Of a stretch of DNA of 23,294 nucleotides, positions 66 to 14,941 are shown in pieces (position 1 is the first letter of the stretch; each line of letters starts with the position of its first letter). Where the stretch lies: positions 1-23,294 of IMG/VR virus record IMGVR_UViG_3300009431_000575. One strand, written 5' to 3'. The notes under the pieces are model-generated. The model was not told where the DNA came from and ran no database searches. It worked only from the letters and a program-made list of their open reading frames with translations. The DNA is from a virus. Both the position numbers and the translations under genes were made by a program.

Positions 66-920
66 TTATATTCCCAATCCTAGCTGACATTTTGACAATC
101 TTTCTCTCGCCATCTCACAATATCTCTTTTCTTTGTCTATACCTATGATGTTACAACCATTCTGCAAAGCCGCTATGCCCATTGTACCAGAGCCAAAGAA
201 AGGATCGAGTACTGTACCACCAGGTGAGACCATGTAGCGCGTCCACCAGTCTGCGAGTCTGATGGGAGTACCTGCGCCGTGGCCATGTGCACCTGCGCTG
301 GTGGTACTGTTTGCATTTGCAAAAGGTAGTAAATTATAGGGAGTGACACCTCCCCTTTCGGCACAAATTTGCACACATTGAGCTGGGTTCATTCCTTGTC
401 CACTGGGGCGTTCATTTCTCTTGTTAATCCTTTTCCTAGCTCGTTCCTTTGCGGTTTCTTGGCTTTCAGACCACAAAACATTTTCTTGATTTCTAAAACA
501 TTTTGGTGCTCCACACCACACGCATGCCTTAACTGAGGCCCGCAGAAGACCACGGCTACGAGGAACGCATACTCCAGTTGGCACAGCCGTAAAATTCCAC
601 CACCACACATCCTGTACCATATTCCACTCTCTACACACCCACGCCATGAATTCCCATAGCCACCCGCGCATCTGGCCCACATGCTCGCTATTCGGTTGCA
701 AGATAAACACGGCGCTACCAGTCGGTTTCAGAATCCGTCTCACCTCTGGCACTACTCCCTCAACTATGAGTGTCCACCATTCCTCCACCGTCAACATCCC
801 ATAGTCCCGCTTTGTCATCGGATAAGGCGGATCAGTGATTACGGCATCCACGCTGGCACTTGGTAATGTAGTCAAGACTTCCAAGCAGTCACCGCACTCA
901 ATGTGTACAGATAGATTCAT
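66..920 (-). CDS. DNA amino-methyltransferase (N4-cytosine/N6-adenine, beta class)
   Basis: This 284-residue protein should transfer a methyl group from SAM to an exocyclic amino group of adenine or cytosine in DNA. The catalytic motif IV (DPPY in AVITDPPYP, about residues 31-34) precedes the SAM-binding motif I (LDPFFGSGTMG, about residues 239-249). That order defines the beta class (N6_N4_Mtase family). The middle 100 residues, with CVWCG and basic stretches, probably form the target-recognition region. The target base and site cannot be read from sequence. It is the last readable gene of the leftward operon and starts 10 bases after the zinc-ribbon gene ends, with AAAAGG before the ATG. 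No restriction nuclease is adjacent, so protection against host restriction is the likeliest role. Confidence 0.93.
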   Translation of the reverse strand: MNLSVHIECGDCLEVLTTLPSASVDAVITDPPYPMTKRDYGMLTVEEWWTLIVEGVVPEVRRILKPTGSAVFILQPNSEHVGQMRGWLWEFMAWVCREWNMVQDVWWWNFTAVPTGVCVPRSRGLLRASVKACVWCGAPKCFRNQENVLWSESQETAKERARKRINKRNERPSGQGMNPAQCVQICAERGGVTPYNLLPFANANSTTSAGAHGHGAGTPIRLADWWTRYMVSPGGTVLDPFFGSGTMGIAALQNGCNIIGIDKEKRYCEMARERLSKCQLGLGI

Positions 921-930
921 GTTGCCTTTT

Positions 931-1188
931 TCATTGCAGTAATTTAATGTATGCTTCTAAGAACAAATCCAGCCTAACATTATTGTATTCCACGTCATTG
1001 TATTCCATGTCACTTTCCCGCATCTCACTGAGCGTGAGCAGGCGGTTTGGCGGCATGCCATTCTCATACTCACACACGGGGCAAGCGCCTCGTTGTAATT
1101 GGGCAATCCCGCCAATCCAACCGCAGCCAGGACAGATGATGCAATCACCTATATCTAGGTCTTTCACCGTGCGTGCTAATTCAGACAT
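931..1188 (-). CDS. small zinc-ribbon protein
   Basis: This 85-residue protein has two CxxC pairs (CPGC near residues 19-22 and CPVC near 36-39) separated by a short glycine-rich turn, the pattern of a single zinc ribbon. The C-terminal half is acidic with no recognised domain. The start is supported by AGGAG seven bases upstream of the ATG. The ATG lies inside the end of the C5-methyltransferase gene (8-base overlap), so translation of the two is probably coupled. It could be a DNA-binding or adaptor protein for the neighbouring methyltransferases. I do not recognise a named family, and function is unknown. Confidence 0.8.
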   Translation of the reverse strand: MSELARTVKDLDIGDCIICPGCGWIGGIAQLQRGACPVCEYENGMPPNRLLTLSEMRESDMEYNDVEYNNVRLDLFLEAYIKLLQ

Positions 1189-2500
1189 TGTTGTTCTCCT
1201 TTTTTCCTGCTGTTGACTGTTGTGCTACAGCAACAATTCTCTCACCAATCCACTTGGCGACTGGTACACAAACTGCATTGCCCAGCATCCGATAACGCGG
1301 CGTGTCTTTCATTCCGTTGACCGCCGTGTGCCCATCAGGAAATCCCTGAAGGCGTTCACACTCTGTGACGGTCAATCTCCGGATACCATATCTGTCTTGC
1401 ACTGCTGGTGTCTGACTTGCTTGTAATGCACTCATATGTTCACCAGAAATATTCAGCCGAACATCGCCCCCAGATTGCCAGTCAAATACTACGGCAGACA
1501 CTTGCGTTGTTCCACAAGCTGGCGCTACTTCTTTGCTGATTCCTAAACTGCCAGCCCTTGCTCCTTGTTGCCACTTAAAAGCAATTACGCCCCCCTGCGC
1601 ACAGCCTGGGTTAAGTCCACTTGTGTCAAGCGGCTTTGTCGTTGGCATTTCCCGCACATAGAACCCGCCGTGTGGCCGGTCTCTGCGTTTGTTACCCCCG
1701 TGATTTTTCATCACTACAAAATGCTCACCGTCAGGATCATTGCGTTGGTTGTGGCCTGATAGCGCATGCTGTACTATCAAGTGTCCTCGTTTGTGGTCAT
1801 CTTGTCCCTTGTGACCGCTAGCAGCGCTTGATGTAATTGTGTTGGCAACTTCCGCCCCCGTCTCTCTGCTCGGCGCAGAATCCCAGCACAGGCTTTCGGG
1901 CTCAAAAAGTATTTCCGCGGCACGTGTTTTGTTTCTAAGACATCCGACAATGAACACACGACGGCGGCGTTGGGCCACTCCATAAAATTGCGCATCGAGA
2001 ATGCGCCATGCCACTGAGTAGATTGGTCCACGTGCGGCCCCAGCATTTCCCCAGCCGTTTGTAGGAACTTGCGGTATGATTCCGGTAAGTCCTCCAAGTA
2101 TGATTGCAAAGTCTCGCCCCTGACAGGAATTGAGAAGACCAGGGACATTTTCAATGACAATCCACTCTGGATAAACACTCGTGATAAGTCGATGGAACTC
2201 AAACCAGAGGCCAGATCGCTTTCCAGCCAAGCCTTTACGTTTTCCAGCCACAGAAAGGTCTTGACACGGAAAACCCCCTGTCCAAACATTGATGTTTGCG
2301 AGGTTTGCTCTGGCAAATCCGAGTGGGAATCCTCCAATTCCAGCAAAGAAATGGCATTCGGTGTATGTTTCAACATCATTTGGTTGCACCTCCTCTATGC
2401 TCCGCTCATCAATGAAGCCTATTGGCAATAAGCCACCAGCCATTTGTGCTCTTAGAACGTTGCAGCACTTGAGGTCAATTTCATTGTAGTAAGATGTCAT
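1181..2500 (-). CDS. dcm: DNA (cytosine-5)-methyltransferase
   Basis: This 439-residue protein contains the ordered motifs of C5-cytosine methyltransferases. Motif I is FAGIGGF (52-58). Motif IV is FPCQ with catalytic Cys79. Motif VI is ENV (117-119). Motif VIII is QRRRR (177-181). Motif IX is RRLTVTECERLQGFPD and motif X is YRMLGNAVCVP near the C-terminus. Residues about 190-370 form the variable target-recognition region. The ATG overlaps the TGA of the upstream HNH gene in an ATGA arrangement (2497-2500), indicating translational coupling. An additional long frame with its own ribosome site is nested inside it (1777-2379). The family is certain. The symbol is generic and the recognised site is unknown. 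Confidence 0.95.
   Translation of the reverse strand: MTSYYNEIDLKCCNVLRAQMAGGLLPIGFIDERSIEEVQPNDVETYTECHFFAGIGGFPLGFARANLANINVWTGGFPCQDLSVAGKRKGLAGKRSGLWFEFHRLITSVYPEWIVIENVPGLLNSCQGRDFAIILGGLTGIIPQVPTNGWGNAGAARGPIYSVAWRILDAQFYGVAQRRRRVFIVGCLRNKTRAAEILFEPESLCWDSAPSRETGAEVANTITSSAASGHKGQDDHKRGHLIVQHALSGHNQRNDPDGEHFVVMKNHGGNKRRDRPHGGFYVREMPTTKPLDTSGLNPGCAQGGVIAFKWQQGARAGSLGISKEVAPACGTTQVSAVVFDWQSGGDVRLNISGEHMSALQASQTPAVQDRYGIRRLTVTECERLQGFPDGHTAVNGMKDTPRYRMLGNAVCVPVAKWIGERIVAVAQQSTAGKKENNNV
1777..2379 (-). CDS. overprinted gene nested in the C5-methyltransferase (putative)
   Basis: This 200-codon frame lies wholly inside the cytosine methyltransferase gene, on the same strand in another frame. 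AGGAGGT (2394-2388) sits 8 bases before its first ATG at 2379, with a second ATG directly after. That is as strong a ribosome site as any in the window. The C-terminal third (about 138-190) looks protein-like rather than shadow-like: PNAAVVCSLSDVLET, then YFLSPKACAGILRRAERRGR and a helix. From memory, not checked, similar SLSDxLET...FLSPKACxGILRRAxxRG proteins are annotated in phage genomes as hypothetical or methylase-associated. The frame overlaps codons for motif VIII and the target-recognition region. Function is unknown. The alternative is a chance open frame preserved by constraint on the host gene. Confidence 0.55.
   Translation of the reverse strand: MMLKHTPNAISLLELEDSHSDLPEQTSQTSMFGQGVFRVKTFLWLENVKAWLESDLASGLSSIDLSRVFIQSGLSLKMSLVFSIPVRGETLQSYLEDLPESYRKFLQTAGEMLGPHVDQSTQWHGAFSMRNFMEWPNAAVVCSLSDVLETKHVPRKYFLSPKACAGILRRAERRGRKLPTQLHQALLAVTRDKMTTNEDT
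2380..2400 (-). promoter_or_regulatory. internal Shine-Dalgarno for the nested frame
   Basis: Reading leftward, GAGGAGGTGCAACCA immediately precedes ATGATG. AGGAGGT at 2394-2388 leaves an 8-base spacer. In the methyltransferase frame these bases encode ordinary residues (IEEVQP), so the ribosome site is embedded in coding sequence. Confidence 0.6.
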
Positions 2501-2943
2501 ATCTTCTTTGCTTTCTCTTTAATAGATCGTAATTCATCAATCTTCAGCTGTCCAGTATTTGCAAGCCTGTGGCAATTGGGACATAATATAATTCCATTGT
2601 CAAGTGAATAGACCCCGCCATCCTTTTTTGAGATAATGTGATGGGTGTCACAGGTAGCATCACTCCAACCACAACGCATACAAATATCAGGATAGAGACG
2701 ACGTAAAGCCTTATTCCAACTCCCCTTGTTAGCATAAACTTTCTTACTGTGATGCACATAGGTCAACCCTTTGTTCCAAGGGGTATGAGGGCGAACACGC
2801 TCAAGCGTGGCTTTGGCAGCTTCAATTTGCTCTCGGGTTTTTTCCCTGTTCTGGTGACCTGGGATAAATTTACGGGTGCGCCCTCGTTTGTCAAATTTTG
2901 GCCTCAGTTGTCCACAACCGCATGCGCATTGCATTTGCTCCAT
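2497..2943 (-). CDS. HNH endonuclease (free-standing homing type)
   Basis: This 148-residue protein has a C-terminal HNH nuclease with structural zinc. C88-x2-C91 is followed by the catalytic HH (101-102), Asn116 in the LDNGIILC segment, then C121-x2-C124-H125. The N-terminus carries another Cys cluster (CACGCG, 6-11) and a TPWNKGL segment typical of phage homing-nuclease DNA-binding regions. It should nick or cut DNA at a specific site. The ATG has AAGGAG upstream (TGTGAGAAGGAGTAAACT). It is the first gene after the 2972-3000 promoter and overlaps the methyltransferase start by 4 bases. A restriction role with the methyltransferase is possible, but a mobile endonuclease is likelier. Confidence 0.88.
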   Translation of the reverse strand: MEQMQCACGCGQLRPKFDKRGRTRKFIPGHQNREKTREQIEAAKATLERVRPHTPWNKGLTYVHHSKKVYANKGSWNKALRRLYPDICMRCGWSDATCDTHHIISKKDGGVYSLDNGIILCPNCHRLANTGQLKIDELRSIKEKAKKI

Positions 2944-2971
2944 AGTTTACTCCTTCTCACAGGATAACTTC

Positions 2972-3000
2972 ATTATAGCATAAACTAGGGATGAAGGCAA
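2972..3000 (-). promoter_or_regulatory. sigma70-type promoter for the HNH-methyltransferase operon
   Basis: On the minus strand TTGCCT (3000-2995) and a perfect TATAAT (2977-2972) are separated by 17 bases. The predicted start is about 2965, roughly 20 bases upstream of the HNH ATG. It lies in the 168-base gap after the NPPY-motif gene. The rest of that gap shows nothing convincing. Confidence 0.6.
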
Positions 3001-3111
3001 ATGTCACTTTCCGAATTTCCCCCTCCCACTCCCGCGAAGAGGCTGCCAAATGTGAACTGTGGTAAAGACAACTTATTCCTCTGCTGGTGAACCGCCAGCT
3101 TTTGCTTCCCT

Positions 3112-3348
3112 TCACTCACAATCTGCATCTCTCAGTATATCCTCTGGTGTCCAATCACTGTAACTTTGTTTGATGTGTGGATATGGAGGGTTGACGATGA
3201 CAGCATCAGCGTGCGGCACTCCATATTGCTCTACCATTGCTTCACGGTAGCGCCTCAGTGCAACTAGTGCCTTGCGCTGTGCCTCCAGTGAGAGGGCATA
3301 GAGACGGTCAACTTCGGCGCGGAGGGCTTTTAGGTCTATGTCTGACAT
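3112..3348 (-). CDS. small protein with isolated methyltransferase motif IV (remnant?)
   Basis: This 78-residue protein has an N-terminal charged, coiled-coil-like helix (about 1-40). It is followed by ADAVIVNPPYP (48-58), which resembles the catalytic motif IV of amino-methyltransferases, including VDAVITDPPYP in the methyltransferase ending at position 66. No SAM-binding motif follows; the protein stops 20 residues later in an acidic tail. It starts 13 bases after the helicase-methyltransferase stop. It may be a truncated methyltransferase, or a small protein that kept the segment for another reason. It cannot be an active methyltransferase alone. Confidence 0.6.
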   Translation of the reverse strand: MSDIDLKALRAEVDRLYALSLEAQRKALVALRRYREAMVEQYGVPHADAVIVNPPYPHIKQSYSDWTPEDILRDADCE

Positions 3349-3361
3349 TTGGCCCCCATAA

Positions 3362-5998
3362 TCATAGCAATCTAAGAGCCTTGTGCTCTAGCACTGCCTG
3401 ATCTAAATTCCTGACTGCATCCAAGAAATACTCTCTTTTAAGCTCCATACCAATGAAGTACCGTTCAAGTTTTATTGTCTCCACTCCCTCACTGCCAATA
3501 CCAGCGAACGGTGACAATATAGTGTCCTGCGGTAAACTCCATAGTTTGAGTGCGCGAGAGATGAGGCTGAGTTGGAGCGGACATACATGTTTGTCTGCGT
3601 TTTCAAATTCTTTAGTTCTACCTCGTGCATATGGGCTATTGAGTGTGTCTGTTTCTTTAATGTCGTGCCACACTCCTGCCAGTGTTGCCATGTATTCATC
3701 AAATCGAGCTTCTTGTGGAATAGTGAGAGCAGGGTTGCTTCCTGGATGGTTGTATGTCTCCTCTTGCCAAACTGCATCGGCAAATTCAATCCATTCATTG
3801 CGGGTGATTTCTGAATTGTCTATTGGTGCAGGATTATCACCGGGTTTCTTGAACAGGAGCAAGTAATCAGGGAATGATGGCACAATCTGAGCGCGATCGC
3901 GTTCCAATGTAGAGAATTGCAACGAGTTGATGTGGAGACGAATTGACTGAGCTTGGGGATTTTTCAAGATTACCACTTCACCGAATTGAAAGAAGCCTTG
4001 CTCACAGAAAGCACGGATGACATCACCCCGAAAGTCTGAAATGCCTACAACGCCATCCAGTCCTTTGCGCAAAGGCGCTTGCATTACATGGCAAGCTACC
4101 AGACGCCCTGGCTTCATTGCTCGTCGCAATCCTGCCAGAAAGAAGGAGAAATGAAGCATAAACTCATACTTGCCTTCCTCGCCTACGCCGCCGCTGTTGC
4201 CCATATCGCCTAGTTCATTGGTGTAAGCATAAATATCATTGCGGAATGGCGGACTGAAGATAGCGAAATCTACACTGTTCTCTGCTAGGCCGTCTAGCAT
4301 ACTGGATATGCTGTCTACGTGATATAGTTCATAATGTTCTGTGATTGCTGGTTCTTGCATTATGACTGTCTCCTTTTGTGAGGGCCTTCTGTCGGCCTCA
4401 AGGTACTCTTGCAATTCATCAAAAAGTGAATTGATGTAGAGCCTTTCCTGTATAGCAAAATCATATTCTGCCCGCTCTTGTTTGCGCAGAACATTGGTGA
4501 GCATAACTTCCTCGTAAGATGTATAGGGCAAGAATACTTTTAGCGTCTCAGTCTGTCCATAACGATGTGCGCGTTTGATTGCTTGATAATACTCCTCAAA
4601 ACTATCGCGCAGTCCTGAGAAGATTTCAATCGTGACGTGCTGAAAGTTTAGGCCAAAGCCGAGCAGTCTTGGCTTGCTTATCATCACTTCTAGATGGCCA
4701 TGCCGAAAATCCTCAAGTTGCTGTAGCCTTTTCTCTTGTGGGGTCTTGCCAGTCAGGTGAGCGATTTTCAGATTGGTGTGTTCTCTCAACTCCTGCGCAA
4801 TTGTCTCACCTTCCTCATCGTAGACACACCAAATGATGGCATATTCGCCAGGGTGATCTGCGAGGATATTGCGGATAGTGGTGGGCTTATTTGAAGCAAC
4901 ATGTGTAATGTCAGCTTGTCTGTGGTACAAGAAACCTTTAGAGATTTGCGAATATTGACCGCGTTCCTTCATTCCATTTGGCTTCTTTGCCAGACCAGGC
5001 AGAGTGGGCTGTTGGCGTGTTGTAATAGTTGCGATGAGGCTGAGTTGTTCCTGTGTCATCTCTACAGGTATCTTGATTTCCTTCCACGGTGGTAAGTCTT
5101 TTAAGTTATCATTGAACCCATACGCTGATGGGTGGCGGATGAAGATGCTCCAACCAGATAGAAAGCGGTAGAAAGCATCTGAGCCATGCCGCCGCAATAC
5201 CCATTTATTCTCTTTGTTGACAAAGAACATGGCATACATCTCGTTAGCTGCCCGTATTTGTTCCAAGAATACTGCGTGCTGCGCATATTCAATTCTTGAG
5301 TTTGGTGCGGGCGTAGCAGAATAGCAGTATTTATACTCTACACCACTAGTGCATTCAATGAGGTTAGTGCGTATGATGCCAGTTCCAGATTTCAAAATTC
5401 CAGATTCGTCAAGTACCACGCAATCAATACCTGATAAGTCAATCGGCTGTCTAAATTTGTCATAGTTGATTATGCCTACCTTGAACTTGCTATCCTTGGC
5501 AAATGCGCGGATATTGTTAGGCCCAATGCCGCCATAGTGCTGGCGCGTATAGAGATTGACGATGTGAAATCCATCACCATAGAATTTCATTGATTCTTCT
5601 ATTGTCTGATTGATGATCATCAGCGGCGAGATAATGAGGGTTTTCTTGCCTAGATGAGCAAGTTGGCGGGCAAGCTCCAAAAAAATAAGTGTCTTCCCCA
5701 ATCCCGCGTCCGCAAAGCAAGCATATCGCTTCTTGCGCCATGATACACGGGTGATGACCTTTTGATAGTCAAACATCACGTCTGGCAGGGGAAGCGGCAA
5801 GTCAAGCTCTTGCGCACTGTAATCTATGCCAAATCGGTCTGCATAAATGGCAGGAAATGTGATACACCAATCACCGTTAGTGCCTGGTGTAACATCGTAG
5901 CGGGGCAAACGTTTCACATTGAGAAATTGACGGTAAGTTTCATTGTCTAGTGTTTCAATGGTCAACCTGGCCTCGCTGTCATGGATTGCAATTGTCAT
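3362..5998 (-). CDS. SNF2-like helicase fused to DNA methyltransferase
   Basis: This 878-residue protein joins a superfamily 2 helicase/translocase to an amino-methyltransferase. Walker A is ADAGLGKT (96-103). The Walker B position reads VVLDESG (194-200). Motif III is SATP (227-230). Motif VI is AIKRAHRYGQTE (about 473-484), the SNF2/Swi2 style. After a linker rich in charged residues (about 505-550) come SPPF (582-585), the N4-cytosine-type motif IV, and SPFAGIGSEG (about 829-838), the SAM-binding motif I. The motif order is beta class. ATP-driven tracking may load the methyltransferase on phage DNA. Comparable helicase-methylase fusions are known in phages. GGAGG lies 4 bases before the ATG. 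It is the first gene behind the structured leader and promoter at 6034-6185. Confidence 0.93.
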   Translation of the reverse strand: MTIAIHDSEARLTIETLDNETYRQFLNVKRLPRYDVTPGTNGDWCITFPAIYADRFGIDYSAQELDLPLPLPDVMFDYQKVITRVSWRKKRYACFADAGLGKTLIFLELARQLAHLGKKTLIISPLMIINQTIEESMKFYGDGFHIVNLYTRQHYGGIGPNNIRAFAKDSKFKVGIINYDKFRQPIDLSGIDCVVLDESGILKSGTGIIRTNLIECTSGVEYKYCYSATPAPNSRIEYAQHAVFLEQIRAANEMYAMFFVNKENKWVLRRHGSDAFYRFLSGWSIFIRHPSAYGFNDNLKDLPPWKEIKIPVEMTQEQLSLIATITTRQQPTLPGLAKKPNGMKERGQYSQISKGFLYHRQADITHVASNKPTTIRNILADHPGEYAIIWCVYDEEGETIAQELREHTNLKIAHLTGKTPQEKRLQQLEDFRHGHLEVMISKPRLLGFGLNFQHVTIEIFSGLRDSFEEYYQAIKRAHRYGQTETLKVFLPYTSYEEVMLTNVLRKQERAEYDFAIQERLYINSLFDELQEYLEADRRPSQKETVIMQEPAITEHYELYHVDSISSMLDGLAENSVDFAIFSPPFRNDIYAYTNELGDMGNSGGVGEEGKYEFMLHFSFFLAGLRRAMKPGRLVACHVMQAPLRKGLDGVVGISDFRGDVIRAFCEQGFFQFGEVVILKNPQAQSIRLHINSLQFSTLERDRAQIVPSFPDYLLLFKKPGDNPAPIDNSEITRNEWIEFADAVWQEETYNHPGSNPALTIPQEARFDEYMATLAGVWHDIKETDTLNSPYARGRTKEFENADKHVCPLQLSLISRALKLWSLPQDTILSPFAGIGSEGVETIKLERYFIGMELKREYFLDAVRNLDQAVLEHKALRLL

Positions 5999-7624: not shown

Positions 7625-8194
7625 ATGACCATATTACCAGACTACAAATTGAGACAGTGGGCCTATAAGGGGGGATTAACTCCGTTTGATGTTGCTTGCA
7701 TCAATCCAGCATCGGTTGATCTGCGATTAGGCAACACTATTTGTGTGCCGTGCTGGTACTGGAAGCCAATATTATGGCGATTGGCATATAGGCTTGGCCT
7801 TCCGCACTGGACAGATCCAAAAATGTTTGACACATATCTACTTAGACCAGGTGAATTTGTGCTGTGTTCCTCTATGGAAATTACACATATACCAGACGAT
7901 ATGATTGCTATTCTGTTTTCCAAGTCAAGCACTGGGCGGCGTGGCATTGAGCATCTGCATGCTGGTTACGGTGATCCAGGCTTTGGTGACAATGCGAGAG
8001 GGGGAACTGACTGGACATGGGAGCTTGTAAACATTGCACCCTGGCCCAATCTATTGGAAGCTGGCAAGCCACTGATGCAACTAGTCTTGGCACAATTGCA
8101 TAGCTGTCCAGAGAGAATGTATAAAGAAACTGGACGCTATAATGAACAATCTGGCCCCACTGCCAACAAGGAGGGAGAGATATTCACTCAGTAA
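7625..8194 (+). CDS. dcd: dCTP deaminase-like protein (Dcd/dUTPase fold)
   Basis: This 189-residue protein has the signatures of the dCTP deaminase/dUTPase trimer family. These are INPASVDLRLG (26-36), SSTGRRGI (101-108), HAGYGDPGFGD (112-122) and TWELVN with the expected catalytic Glu133, then GKPLMQLVL. Dcd converts dCTP to dUTP, feeding dTMP synthesis. Bifunctional members also hydrolyse the product. An insertion of hydrophobic and aromatic residues at about 40-65 is larger than in short family members. It would help a lytic phage raise thymidylate supply. The fold is confident. The choice between deaminase, bifunctional enzyme and dUTPase is not settled by sequence alone. Confidence 0.85.
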   Translation: MTILPDYKLRQWAYKGGLTPFDVACINPASVDLRLGNTICVPCWYWKPILWRLAYRLGLPHWTDPKMFDTYLLRPGEFVLCSSMEITHIPDDMIAILFSKSSTGRRGIEHLHAGYGDPGFGDNARGGTDWTWELVNIAPWPNLLEAGKPLMQLVLAQLHSCPERMYKETGRYNEQSGPTANKEGEIFTQ

Positions 8195-8216
8195 TCATTT
8201 GTCTATTGGAAAAGCG

Positions 8217-8960
8217 ATGTCCAAAACAAAAGCAAACAGCAAGCGTCGGAATTACAGTGGAGAAAACAACCCTAACTGGCGCGGGGGAAACGTTCGTATT
8301 TGCCTAGATTGCGGTGAGCCGTTTACAGCTAGGCATTACGGTAAACAGAAATTCTGTAGTCGTAAGTGCTATGGCAAGCACAGACACAAAACTAACAGTA
8401 CAACTTTTGAGTGTATCATATGCGGCAGAGAAGTAAAGATACTCAAGCATGACGAAGGAAAGCGGAAATATTGCTCCCAGCGATGTATGGGATTAGACAC
8501 TGAGAAAACCCGCTTGACGCAAGAAAAGCGTGCGGGCTGGATTATGAGTGCAGAAGCACGACAAAAGATAAGTGTTGCGGTAACAAACCGCTCAGCAGAG
8601 AATGTATACTCAAGGGGAAAAAGCGGGCACTATACGAGCACAAAGGCAGGAAAAGTATTCTACCGCTCATCCTACGAACTCAAAGCATTTAGATTACTGG
8701 ATGATAATGATGATGTTTTATCTTATAATGTTGAACCATTCATAATTGTATACAAAGACAGGTTTGGTGACACACGACGATACCGCCCCGATATTCTTGT
8801 TTATTGGCAAGACGGGTACACCGCCCTCGTGGAAGTGAAAGCTGCTTGGAGATTGGATATTCCAAAAGTGCTTGAAAAACTCACTGCGGGAGTTATGCAC
8901 GCTAAATCAAAAGGATGGGGTTTTGAAATATGGACAGGTTTTACACTTGGAGTAATATAG
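8217..8960 (+). CDS. zinc-finger PD-(D/E)XK homing endonuclease
   Basis: The protein is 247 residues from ATG 8217. An upstream in-frame ATG at 8142 would overlap the deaminase gene by 53 bases and lacks a ribosome site. GENNPNWRGG (15-24) is followed by two fingers of the C-x2-CG...FCS-x2-C type (29-51 and 66-90), then a NUMOD3-like helix SAEARQKIS. The nuclease domain reads YRSSYELKAF (Glu154), RYRPDILV (Asp192) and ALVEVKAAW (Glu206, Lys208), a PD-(D/E)XK core resembling TnsA-like nucleases. The same finger type occurs in the 14972-15910 protein joined to an HNH domain instead. The likely role is a free-standing homing nuclease. Confidence 0.78.
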   Translation: MSKTKANSKRRNYSGENNPNWRGGNVRICLDCGEPFTARHYGKQKFCSRKCYGKHRHKTNSTTFECIICGREVKILKHDEGKRKYCSQRCMGLDTEKTRLTQEKRAGWIMSAEARQKISVAVTNRSAENVYSRGKSGHYTSTKAGKVFYRSSYELKAFRLLDDNDDVLSYNVEPFIIVYKDRFGDTRRYRPDILVYWQDGYTALVEVKAAWRLDIPKVLEKLTAGVMHAKSKGWGFEIWTGFTLGVI

Positions 8961-11737: not shown

Positions 11738-11749
11738 AATGGAGGCTTG

Positions 11750-14700
11750 ATGAGCAAGCAACTACTGCAAAATCCGAGTTTTGAGGGCATCACTCAGCCC
11801 GGAGAATGGACGCGCGATACCCACATTGAGGTTGAATTCGGGGAGATATGTGTCCCAGCGGGGTGGGTTGCCTGGTGGGAGGAGGGTAGATACCGCCGTC
11901 CAGAGATGAGGGTTATCCCGCGTCAGTCTCCATTCCTTGACCCGGCACGCATCTATGATGGCGATTGGGCATTCCAGGCATTTACTATGTTTGGCCGTCA
12001 GCATGCTGGATTGTATCAAGCAGTTGGGGGGCTTACGCCAGGGGCACGGTACAGATTCACAGTCCGCGCACACGCCTGGTCAGCACACACTGGGGAGCTT
12101 GATGTGTCTGGACACTGTTCAGCGGGTGTAGGGTGTGGGCCTGTTTATCTCACGCCAGATGAAGTGCCTCCGTTGAACGGTGATCCTCTCAATGATGCAA
12201 TCGGCAATTTTGCGTTTAGTGTTGGTGTTGGTCCAATCCAATCTGACCCATTCGCAGATGATGTTCAGTGGGGACCAATAGCACACATCTACAATGCATA
12301 CTACATGGTTCCGCCAGTTGAGTTTATTGCGCCTACAAGTGGGGAAGTGACTGTCTATCTACGTGCTCATTCGCTGTGGGAATTTAGGACCTCTGATGCC
12401 TATTTCGACAATGCCTACCTGGAAGTCATTGAGGAGCCTGAGCCGCCACCAGAGCCGTGGCGTGGGCAGCCGCGTGTACAGTATGAGCGCACTTATGTTT
12501 TACTACCACCCAATCAAGGCAGCGAGATGATTGCACCAATGCTGGGTGTGTGGAATGATCATAGATTCACTATTGGAGGAAGCGCCGACGATGCCGGTGT
12601 GGCTAACTTGGATTATCGGCGCGTCGTGGCAATCAATCCAGATCATTGGGTTGATAGTCTGCAAGGCTTTTTCACGGAGCACTATCCAGACATTCAGTAT
12701 GTGCCTTTGACCTGCACAGCGGCAGATATAGGCGCCAAACTATGTCAGGTGTTTGAGGGTGAACCACTTCCACCCCCACCTCCTCCGCCGCCGCCGCCAC
12801 CGCCGCCGCCACCGCCGCCGCCGCCATTACCGAGGGAGACCAGGGGATGCGTCGGGCTACATCTGCAAACGATGACGGGTGGATGGGAGGACTTTACACG
12901 TGATGTGCAACCATCTGTGATGAAGGTTTTCTCTATGCACGATGTGGCTGGTATCAAGCGGGTCTCTCCCCATACTGTGGTCATATACAGATACTTTACA
13001 AACGATTACCACGACACGCTGGAAAATCCTGACCCCTACAGAGGGGCAGAAAAGTGGATTGACAAATTCAGGGATAGCCTGTATGAAATATGCAACCAGA
13101 TGGCAAGTGAATTTCCCGATTTGGCAGAACCATATTTCTATGTGGAATCCCTCAATGAAGTGTATCCGTCTCTGAATGCGCCGCTTGTAACCCGCGCTGC
13201 GAATTTTGATATAGCGTTCATTGACGTCTTGGCGGAAACTGGATTGCCTGTTAAACCAGCAGTTTTCACAGCAGCGGTTGGGAATCCTCACGAATCTGAA
13301 TATGAATTGCTTGTGCCCTTAGCCCGCAGGTGTGAAGAGGCGGGCGGGATGATGGGTTATCACTGTTTTTCAGCAGATACAGACATCTTAACCCAAAGTG
13401 GCTGGATGAATATCAAGGATTTTGTAGAGAACAACAAATCAACCTCAGTTGCCACTCTGAATAAGGATACTGGAAAGGTTGAATATCAATTGCCGACAGA
13501 CTATTATCATTACCACTATCGTGGGTCAATGATACACCTCTTCGGTAAAGTGGATACTCTTACAACTCCAAACCATAGAATGTGGATTCGTGACACTTGC
13601 AAGGAGCGGAAATTCCCGAATGATCATCTACGAGGATTTGGTTTTGTTGAGGCAGGAAATTTGCCAGATAACTTTGAAGTAAAGAGGGATTTTGGTGAAT
13701 ATATAGGCGTCAATGCCGAGTTCTTCACTATTCCTCATTATCGTAACCGTATAAATCAGTATGAGCACTATCACACTAGGTCTGAGCGAAAAGTACCAAT
13801 GGATGCCTGGCTTGAATTTTTTGGCTTTTGGATCACAGAGGGGAGTGTTTCTCAAAGTGGAAATGTATCCATTAGCCAAAACCCTGGGCCTGTATCTCAC
13901 TCCATTGGAAAGGCTTTAGAGGCAATTGGCTATGAACCAAAATATTACAAATATGATGGAAAATCATCTGGTACTTGGGTAGTGCACGACGTACAACTGG
14001 CCCACTACCTGAGACAATTTGGATATTCTAAAGAGAAATATCTACCTCGTGAAATTATGTCCTTATCAAGACGACAACTGAGAATTTTGTTTAAGGCAAT
14101 GATGTTAGGTGATGGACATAAGGATGAGACATATTTTACATCGTCAAGAAGGCTGGCCGATGATTTTCAAGAATTGGCTTTGAAGTTGGGTTATATCACC
14201 ACTCTGTCAGAGAGCAGAGAGGAAAATTATGTCATATCCTTGGGGAAAAAGAGGAAAACGCCACGTACCAGTAAACAATACATATCAAACGACCGGTATG
14301 CTGGAGAAGTATATTGTGTAACTGTACCAAACGGGTTAGTTTTTGTTCGGCGAAATGGCAAACCATCTTGGCAAGGCAATTCCTACTGGCTGGCAAACCA
14401 GGACTATGGTGAACCAGATCACCTATGGCCCTATTTGGCGGGCAGGTGGGTTGAGATGGATAAAGTCTTTGTATCCCACGGCATTCATGTGCGGTGGTAT
14501 GGCGGTGAAGGCGGGGCGGTTGGAGGGCGGTCGAGTGATGGCGAGGCCAGTTTGGCTCGTGCGGGTATGCAATCTTGGCAAACGGCAGCAGTATGTCCAG
14601 TGGACGCGACGGCGCGTGCTGGTTTTCGCGCCAGTGATGAACCGTATCTCATTCACATTGGTTCATCAAGTTTTGGAGTGCAGGCCAATGGCGATTGGGT

Positions 14701-14941
14701 AAGCCTGTTGGCAACTGCTGGCTGGAAAGACCCTGAGTGTTACAACGGTGACTGGCCTCGCTACCTGACCGACATCATGCGTGCCGATGAACTAATTGTT
14801 GAGTGGAATCAGGGACATGATGACCGTTATCTGGGCATGGTTCTCTTCACGACTGGGATTGGTACTGGCTGGTCTAGCTGGCAAATCCGAGAGCCAGAGA
14901 CGCAGAGTATCATGAATGCTCTCTTGGAGCGATACAGTTGA
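11750..14941 (+). CDS. intein-containing glycosidase-like tail or cell-wall protein
   Basis: The precursor is 1063 residues from ATG 11750 (GGAGG four bases upstream). Residues about 5-235 form a jelly-roll carbohydrate-binding-like domain beginning LLQNPSFEG. A run of 19 consecutive prolines (341-359) links it to a glycosidase-like domain. There VESLNEVY places a candidate acid/base Glu470 after Asn, as in clan GH-A barrels, and LIVEWNQ gives a candidate nucleophile Glu1018. An intein interrupts residues 539-877; splicing would leave 724 residues and rejoin GYH to SYWLAN. The likely role is degrading or binding host surface glycans. The position before the endolysin gene suggests a tail- or lysis-associated protein. 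The substrate is unknown, and the enzyme class is inferred from motifs. Confidence 0.8.
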   Translation: MSKQLLQNPSFEGITQPGEWTRDTHIEVEFGEICVPAGWVAWWEEGRYRRPEMRVIPRQSPFLDPARIYDGDWAFQAFTMFGRQHAGLYQAVGGLTPGARYRFTVRAHAWSAHTGELDVSGHCSAGVGCGPVYLTPDEVPPLNGDPLNDAIGNFAFSVGVGPIQSDPFADDVQWGPIAHIYNAYYMVPPVEFIAPTSGEVTVYLRAHSLWEFRTSDAYFDNAYLEVIEEPEPPPEPWRGQPRVQYERTYVLLPPNQGSEMIAPMLGVWNDHRFTIGGSADDAGVANLDYRRVVAINPDHWVDSLQGFFTEHYPDIQYVPLTCTAADIGAKLCQVFEGEPLPPPPPPPPPPPPPPPPPPPLPRETRGCVGLHLQTMTGGWEDFTRDVQPSVMKVFSMHDVAGIKRVSPHTVVIYRYFTNDYHDTLENPDPYRGAEKWIDKFRDSLYEICNQMASEFPDLAEPYFYVESLNEVYPSLNAPLVTRAANFDIAFIDVLAETGLPVKPAVFTAAVGNPHESEYELLVPLARRCEEAGGMMGYHCFSADTDILTQSGWMNIKDFVENNKSTSVATLNKDTGKVEYQLPTDYYHYHYRGSMIHLFGKVDTLTTPNHRMWIRDTCKERKFPNDHLRGFGFVEAGNLPDNFEVKRDFGEYIGVNAEFFTIPHYRNRINQYEHYHTRSERKVPMDAWLEFFGFWITEGSVSQSGNVSISQNPGPVSHSIGKALEAIGYEPKYYKYDGKSSGTWVVHDVQLAHYLRQFGYSKEKYLPREIMSLSRRQLRILFKAMMLGDGHKDETYFTSSRRLADDFQELALKLGYITTLSESREENYVISLGKKRKTPRTSKQYISNDRYAGEVYCVTVPNGLVFVRRNGKPSWQGNSYWLANQDYGEPDHLWPYLAGRWVEMDKVFVSHGIHVRWYGGEGGAVGGRSSDGEASLARAGMQSWQTAAVCPVDATARAGFRASDEPYLIHIGSSSFGVQANGDWVSLLATAGWKDPECYNGDWPRYLTDIMRADELIVEWNQGHDDRYLGMVLFTTGIGTGWSSWQIREPETQSIMNALLERYS
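12770..12826 (+). repeat. polyproline linker (CCN repeat)
   Basis: Nineteen proline codons in a row, mostly CCG with CCA interruptions, between the binding domain and the glycosidase-like domain. It is a rigid spacer at protein level, and at DNA level a simple repeat prone to length change. Confidence 0.9.
13364..14380 (+). mobile_element. LAGLIDADG intein, 339 residues
   Basis: Block A is CFSADTDILTQSGW (Cys1). Block B is LTTPNHRMWI. Two homing-nuclease blocks, LEFFGFWITEGS (13811-13846) and LFKAMMLGDGHKDE (14087-14128), give an intact-looking dodecapeptide pair. Block F is EVYCVTVPNGLVFVRRN and block G ends WQGN before Ser+1. The penultimate residue is Gly instead of the usual His, which some natural inteins tolerate. 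The reading frame is maintained and the flanks join sensibly, so splicing is likely. The base composition is more AT-rich than the host gene, consistent with acquisition. Confidence 0.9.

Follow-up and report, generated by a model that had tools for sequence, protein, structure and literature searches.

The gene for a C5-cytosine DNA methyltransferase (MTase) in the viral DNA analysed here contains a second open reading frame, offset by one base on the same strand, which is longer than chance would give for this MTase protein and which, across its relatives, is under purifying selection of its own. It is very likely that the locus codes for protein in both frames, with translation of the nested gene predicted. 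The preliminary description had suggested an overlooked, conserved dual-coding locus, and the linkage to MTases, the selection and the enrichment of start signals reported below all support that suggestion. New here is a motif like those that bind the bacterial sliding clamp, found near the N-terminus of about half of the non-redundant members of the proteobacterial type.

The window, that is, the whole stretch of DNA analysed (23,294 nucleotides), is a complete viral record. The features of the overlap are as follows:

1181..2500 (−): C5-cytosine DNA methyltransferase, 439 aa, the host ORF of the overlap (Pfam PF00145, E 2.7e-46)
1777..2379 (−): nested alternate-frame ORF, 200 aa plus stop TGA; its codon position 1 is MTase codon position 2
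2388..2394 (−): Shine-Dalgarno sequence (SD) AGGAGGT, with an 8-nt spacer to the ATGATG start at 2374-2379
2284..2298 (−): QTSMF, aa 28-32 of the nested protein, aligned with QLTLF of relatives L051 and L087, which share its MTase context
1816..2031 (−): conserved C-terminal region, aa 117-188, including SLSDVLET and YFLSPKACAGILRRAERRGRKLP; alternate-frame selection peaks in its second half
1958..1972 (−): MTase motif QRRRR, which on comparison of the frames is PNAAVV in the alternate frame

In the ORF list of the window the nested ORF lies wholly within the MTase ORF, which itself holds the PF00145 domain together with the PCQ, ENV and QRRRR motifs. The preliminary description had proposed the 200-codon open frame, the AGGAGGT eight bases 5′ of ATGATG and PNAAVV as the shifted reading of QRRRR; all three were confirmed, the last because alternate codons begin at MTase codon position 2, so that QRRRR is read as (P)N-A-A-V-V. 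The length of the nested ORF exceeds what the MTase protein would produce by chance: in 20,000 shuffles of the window gene that kept the MTase protein and its codon usage constant, an open stretch at least as long as the real 205 codons arose in 4 and an ATG-started ORF of at least 200 codons in 2.

The MTase belongs to a cluster of modification genes on the minus strand (66-5998), which also includes an N4/N6 MTase (66-920), an HNH protein (2497-2943) and an 878-aa helicase fused to an N6/N4 MTase (3362-5998). A 78-aa ORF at 3112-3348 (−) has an NPPY-like motif (DAVIVNPPYPH) and no family match, and is maybe a methyltransferase remnant or fragment. On the plus strand, a single ORF at 8142-8960 combines an HNH-type N-terminal half (PHROG) with a match to a TnsA-like endonuclease N-terminal domain and head-closure PHROG, and a 1064-aa ORF at 11747-14941, with a LAGLIDADG-like segment and a match to PHROG 85 (thymidylate synthase) over a short central stretch, is possibly a large phage protein with an intein or homing-endonuclease insertion.

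Relatives and linkage to methyltransferase genes

Searched by tblastn with the shifted protein alone, 130 phage records were matched, P1 and P7 among them, and each of the matches listed fell in a methyltransferase gene, an unnamed gene at the same place or an unannotated stretch. Both P7 Dam and P1 Dmt contain the nested frame, which in P1 is an ORF of 162 aa. The search by tblastn also matched 532 plasmids; most come from Escherichia and have annotations resembling that of P1 Dmt. Pattern scans brought at least 572 confirmed loci in viral contigs and 412 in bacterial genomes; scans of viral contigs with single-sequence patterns were nearly empty, and alignments were needed to detect relatives. 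A draw of 300 Pseudomonadota genomes gave at least 6 with matches, a lower bound on prevalence because most candidates were not fully scored. The carriers comprise phages and plasmids of Pseudomonadota, Actinomycetota and Bacillota, and include prophages and P1-like phage-plasmids.

The check proposed at the outset, whether each hit overlaps a methyltransferase, gave a uniform answer: in 247 of 247 first-round loci the alternate domain overlaps an MTase ORF at the identical frame offset, and no stand-alone copy was found among them. One locus that looked like a short stand-alone copy (L254) was rejected, as it sits on a broken MTase fragment. The nested frame was also present in 80 of 80 loci retrieved by MTase sequence only; these loci scored highest against an MTase alignment into which only carriers of the frame had been selected. 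The frame is not inherent in C5-MTases, since those of Vibrio 1.233.B, Thermus P23-45 and Bacillus phi18-2 are without it; four other controls (L262, L264, L265 and L270) were uninformative, their motif-VIII anchor not being located.

A shorter, diverged nested frame occurs in MTases of streptococcal, lactococcal, clostridial, listerial, enterococcal and lactobacillar phages or plasmids. The host MTases of this Bacillota form have QNRERVF-like motifs in place of QRRRR, and the nested frame ends shortly after SLSDILE..V.EKYFLS, a core it has in common with the proteobacterial type. Versions that have diverged further are found in Caulobacter CcrSC and Pectobacterium ZF40. Two loci are irregular. 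In Faecalibacterium phage FP_Toutatis (L269 1099-2510) the annotated MTase is split, its N-terminal part entering the alternate-frame tail and its true continuation lying in another frame, a frameshift or sequencing error. In Mycobacterium phage Thibault (L247 1841-3642) an HNH-bearing stretch disrupts the MTase, and gp104, which has an ATG of its own, preserves the alternate-frame domain.

Selection on the alternate frame

The preliminary description had named three outcomes that would speak against a gene: no purifying selection in the alternate frame, stop codons in most homologues, and loss of the ribosome site in relatives. As to the first, there is purifying selection on the alternate frame and it is confined to the overlap. 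In a codon alignment of 68 MTases of less than 60% identity, the ratio of observed to expected synonymous identity was about 1.0-1.2 upstream of the nested ORF, 1.1-1.6 in its N-terminal and middle part and 2.1-2.8 in its C-terminal part, and fell to 0.97 just 3′ of the nested stop. The C-terminal part, where the SLSDVLET motif singled out earlier lies within the conserved region under the strongest alternate-frame selection, had a dNN/dNS of 0.36 (CI 0.28-0.46) and a dSN/dSS of 0.24 (CI 0.17-0.37) for the alternate frame, the related sequences not being fully independent in these intervals because the bootstrap resamples columns rather than lineages. Flanking controls gave dNN/dNS values of 0.85-1.16 and 0.88-1.00. 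For the N-terminal and middle parts dNN/dNS was about 0.95, and alternate-frame selection was visible only in the small synonymous class. The streptococcal clade yielded alternate-frame values of 0.36 (dNN/dNS) and 0.13 (dSN/dSS), with a conserved nested stop.

Stops, the second outcome, are absent from the alternate frame over about 110 codons in the 68 diverged sequences, and reappear immediately past the nested stop. In the C-terminal part the most variable site is MTase codon position 1, the wobble position of the alternate frame (entropy 1.34, against 0.76 and 0.70 for the other two), and identity is higher in the alternate frame (0.64) than in the MTase frame (0.39), which is the more weakly constrained of the two here, though selection at the protein level is seen in both. 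The comparison of P1 with P7 illustrates this: the MTases have diverged (EGVRRNIAPRRKKKEIAS versus EGMRRNIAPSRGEGKETT), and both nested proteins retain KACAGILRR.E.R.K.LP..LQ..L.

The same conclusion comes from a profile of the alternate frame, trained on the window and L001-L004, the remaining rows of the test lying outside the training set: for 68 non-redundant relatives the real score was matched by none of 6,800 MTase-preserving shuffles. In our view a mere by-product of MTase conservation is ruled out, because the shuffles never match the score and selection follows the alternate frame. These data also disfavour an RNA or DNA element.

Start signals and a clamp-like motif

The nested frame has translation start signals of its own. 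The third outcome, loss of the ribosome site in relatives, was not borne out; an ATG with an SD of at least 4 bases is present in 84 of 115 loci, against 33 expected from shuffles. Several Lactococcus, Enterococcus and Listeria members have AAGGAGA about 12 bases upstream of an internal ATG.

Just within the N-terminus many members carry a short motif like the bacterial beta-sliding-clamp-binding consensus, QL(S/D)LF (PMC9690074). Scored as QL[STDN][LMIF][FLWM], with M or I also permitted at position 2, it occurs in 56 of 115 non-redundant proteobacterial-type loci (0.9 expected), together with a start codon and SD in 44 (0.16 expected) and as a perfect QLSLF or QLDLF in 5; in the other two frames it was found in none of the 115. 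When the order of the residue classes was permuted, the real order came top with 56, the runner-up gave 34 and the other orders averaged 3.8, a control that is imperfect because the classes overlap. Downstream of the internal ATG starts of Lactococcus, Enterococcus and Listeria members lie QLSLF, QMSLF and QMTLF, and among Bacillota loci the motif was present in only 7 of 33 non-redundant members against 0.7 expected.

The motif occupies several non-homologous positions in the MTase, at varied distances from the C-terminal domain, and is written over differing MTase residues (xIDLLVGG, NAIDxxR, VVAFYEN, IVWEN and SVGFVPER). Because it is encoded over different residues at different distances, the pattern suggests that the motif itself was selected for more than once. 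Around half of the non-redundant members do not have it in strict form, including those of P7, P1 (MQLTTN) and the window, where QTSMF falls outside the strict pattern and is presumably a degenerate copy of a putative clamp-binding motif.

The nested protein and its possible role

The C-terminal consensus of the nested protein is SLSxVLE..P.KYFLS.KACAGILRRAxKRGxxLP..L..AL. AlphaFold gave the same picture for the window protein and for a short member: low confidence over most of the N-terminal part, and confident C-terminal helices, which in the window protein span aa 161-174 and 180-196, with pLDDT of about 97 for the first helix and the start of the second. No relative of solved structure was found in the PDB, and a Foldseek search with the window model returned no usable match, as expected for a model that is mostly disordered; its one weak match was to Thibault gp104, whose annotated ORF is likewise in the alternate frame. 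Pfam and NCBIfam gave no significant family for the 115 members, only scattered weak Pfam matches of single members. PHROG 16143, labelled ‘DNA methyltransferase’, was matched by 72 of the 115 alternate-frame proteins (best E 8e-15). This family was apparently built at least in part from annotated copies of the nested frame, and its label suits the overlapping MTase gene rather than the nested protein. The statement in the preliminary description that similar phage proteins are annotated as independent genes holds in some cases, Thibault gp104 and PHROG 16143 being examples.

On balance we lean towards the nested protein being real and working by way of the clamp. The middle of the C5-MTase, from around motif IV to slightly beyond motif VIII, would be encoded in one frame of an mRNA stretch whose +1-shifted frame would specify a second, distinct protein of roughly 130-200 aa with an internal translation start of its own. 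This small protein would consist of a short linear motif of beta-clamp type near the N-terminus (QL[S/T/D][L/M/I/F][F/L/W]), a weakly constrained and probably disordered linker, and the conserved C-terminal helical region. Made along with the MTase, it would dock by its N-terminus on the beta clamp of the host (or phage), while the C-terminal part would hold a partner there, plausibly the MTase itself or DNA; the outcome would be methylation, at the fork, of phage DNA that has just been replicated. The motif statistics make it fairly likely that motif-bearing members have a clamp-binding N-terminus. That the nested protein tethers the MTase at the replication fork is a tentative proposal, favoured because the association with an MTase is constant and by the precedent of DNMT1 and PCNA (PMC9690074). 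More doubtful still is the general case, in which many C5-MTase genes of phages and mobile elements would encode their own clamp adaptor in a shifted frame, an arrangement analogous, in bacteria, to DNMT1-PCNA recruitment and one that escaped notice even in P1.

A clamp-binding nested protein could instead act on the host, occupying the clamp so that host replication slows or is diverted, in the manner of SocB, a small clamp-binding toxin that inhibits replication (PMC9690074). The same N-terminal motif is compatible with this, as is the number of carriers that are phages or prophages. We nevertheless think it unlikely: never to occur apart from an MTase in 247 loci is odd for a free-standing inhibitor, and inhibition would be costly in the prophages, the P1-like phage-plasmids and the few kinds of plasmid that retain the frame. 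Less probable again is that the motif is not a clamp motif and that the C-terminal helices are the working part, for example of an MTase-binding regulator or a DNA-binding or anti-restriction protein. Selection is indeed strongest there, many members are without the strict motif and the helix GILRRAxKRG is basic, but this would leave the motif, placed at several MTase positions just past SD-bearing starts and far above the MTase-preserving null, to be accounted for.

A programmed frameshift, giving a truncated MTase with an alternate tail, seems very improbable. The frames are one base apart, the FP_Toutatis annotation joins an MTase N-terminal part to the alternate tail and BFVD contains a 521-aa ‘methyltransferase’ model with a match to the alternate domain; however, ATG, SD and motif coincide at the 5′ end far above chance, the starts fall at differing MTase positions, and the FP_Toutatis join resembles one indel in a single record. 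Least credible is that there is no gene, the conservation reflecting a DNA or RNA element or following from codon bias and the conserved MTase, since although motifs IV and VIII are conserved here and dictate part of the alternate sequence, the shuffles never reach the real score, substitutions track alternate codons and leave their wobble sites free, stops are missing and the constraint ends just past the alternate stop.

If it is translated, the nested gene would be unusually widespread, present even in the classic laboratory phage P1 and generally absent from annotation. It would explain why the MTase stretch just past motif VIII is poorly conserved as protein yet rigid as DNA, would offer a tractable case of two proteins sharing a single gene, and would supply a testable motif linking phage DNA methylation to the replication clamp.

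Classical overprinted phage genes of the phiX174 type are likewise nested on the same strand in a shifted frame, but the frame described here spans phages of several bacterial phyla and is always tied to one host-gene family. In the open-access literature we found no earlier report of a nested or overprinted ORF in methyltransferase genes or P1 dmt besides that of ShiLan, in which a hidden HNH endonuclease occupies another frame of a phage DNA-methylase gene as a mobile insertion with no detectable SD (PMC11855218). The nested frame differs in that it is written over the core of the MTase, is often preceded by an SD and was present in every first-round relative checked; no HNH domain was matched by Pfam in the window protein (P0001), nor any HNH family among the matches of the 115 members. 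PHROG 16143 is alike in being matched by alternate-frame proteins and differs in its methyltransferase label, and Thibault gp104 is a stand-alone annotated ORF with the alternate-frame C-terminal domain, at a locus whose MTase is disrupted. Closest in proposed function is DNMT1, whose PCNA-binding motif is a precedent for clamp-recruited C5 methylation (PMC9690074). DNMT1 and the bacterial beta-clamp binders use a short clamp-binding peptide, for which the nested-protein motif is a candidate, but here the motif lies on a separate protein, encoded in the other frame of the MTase gene.
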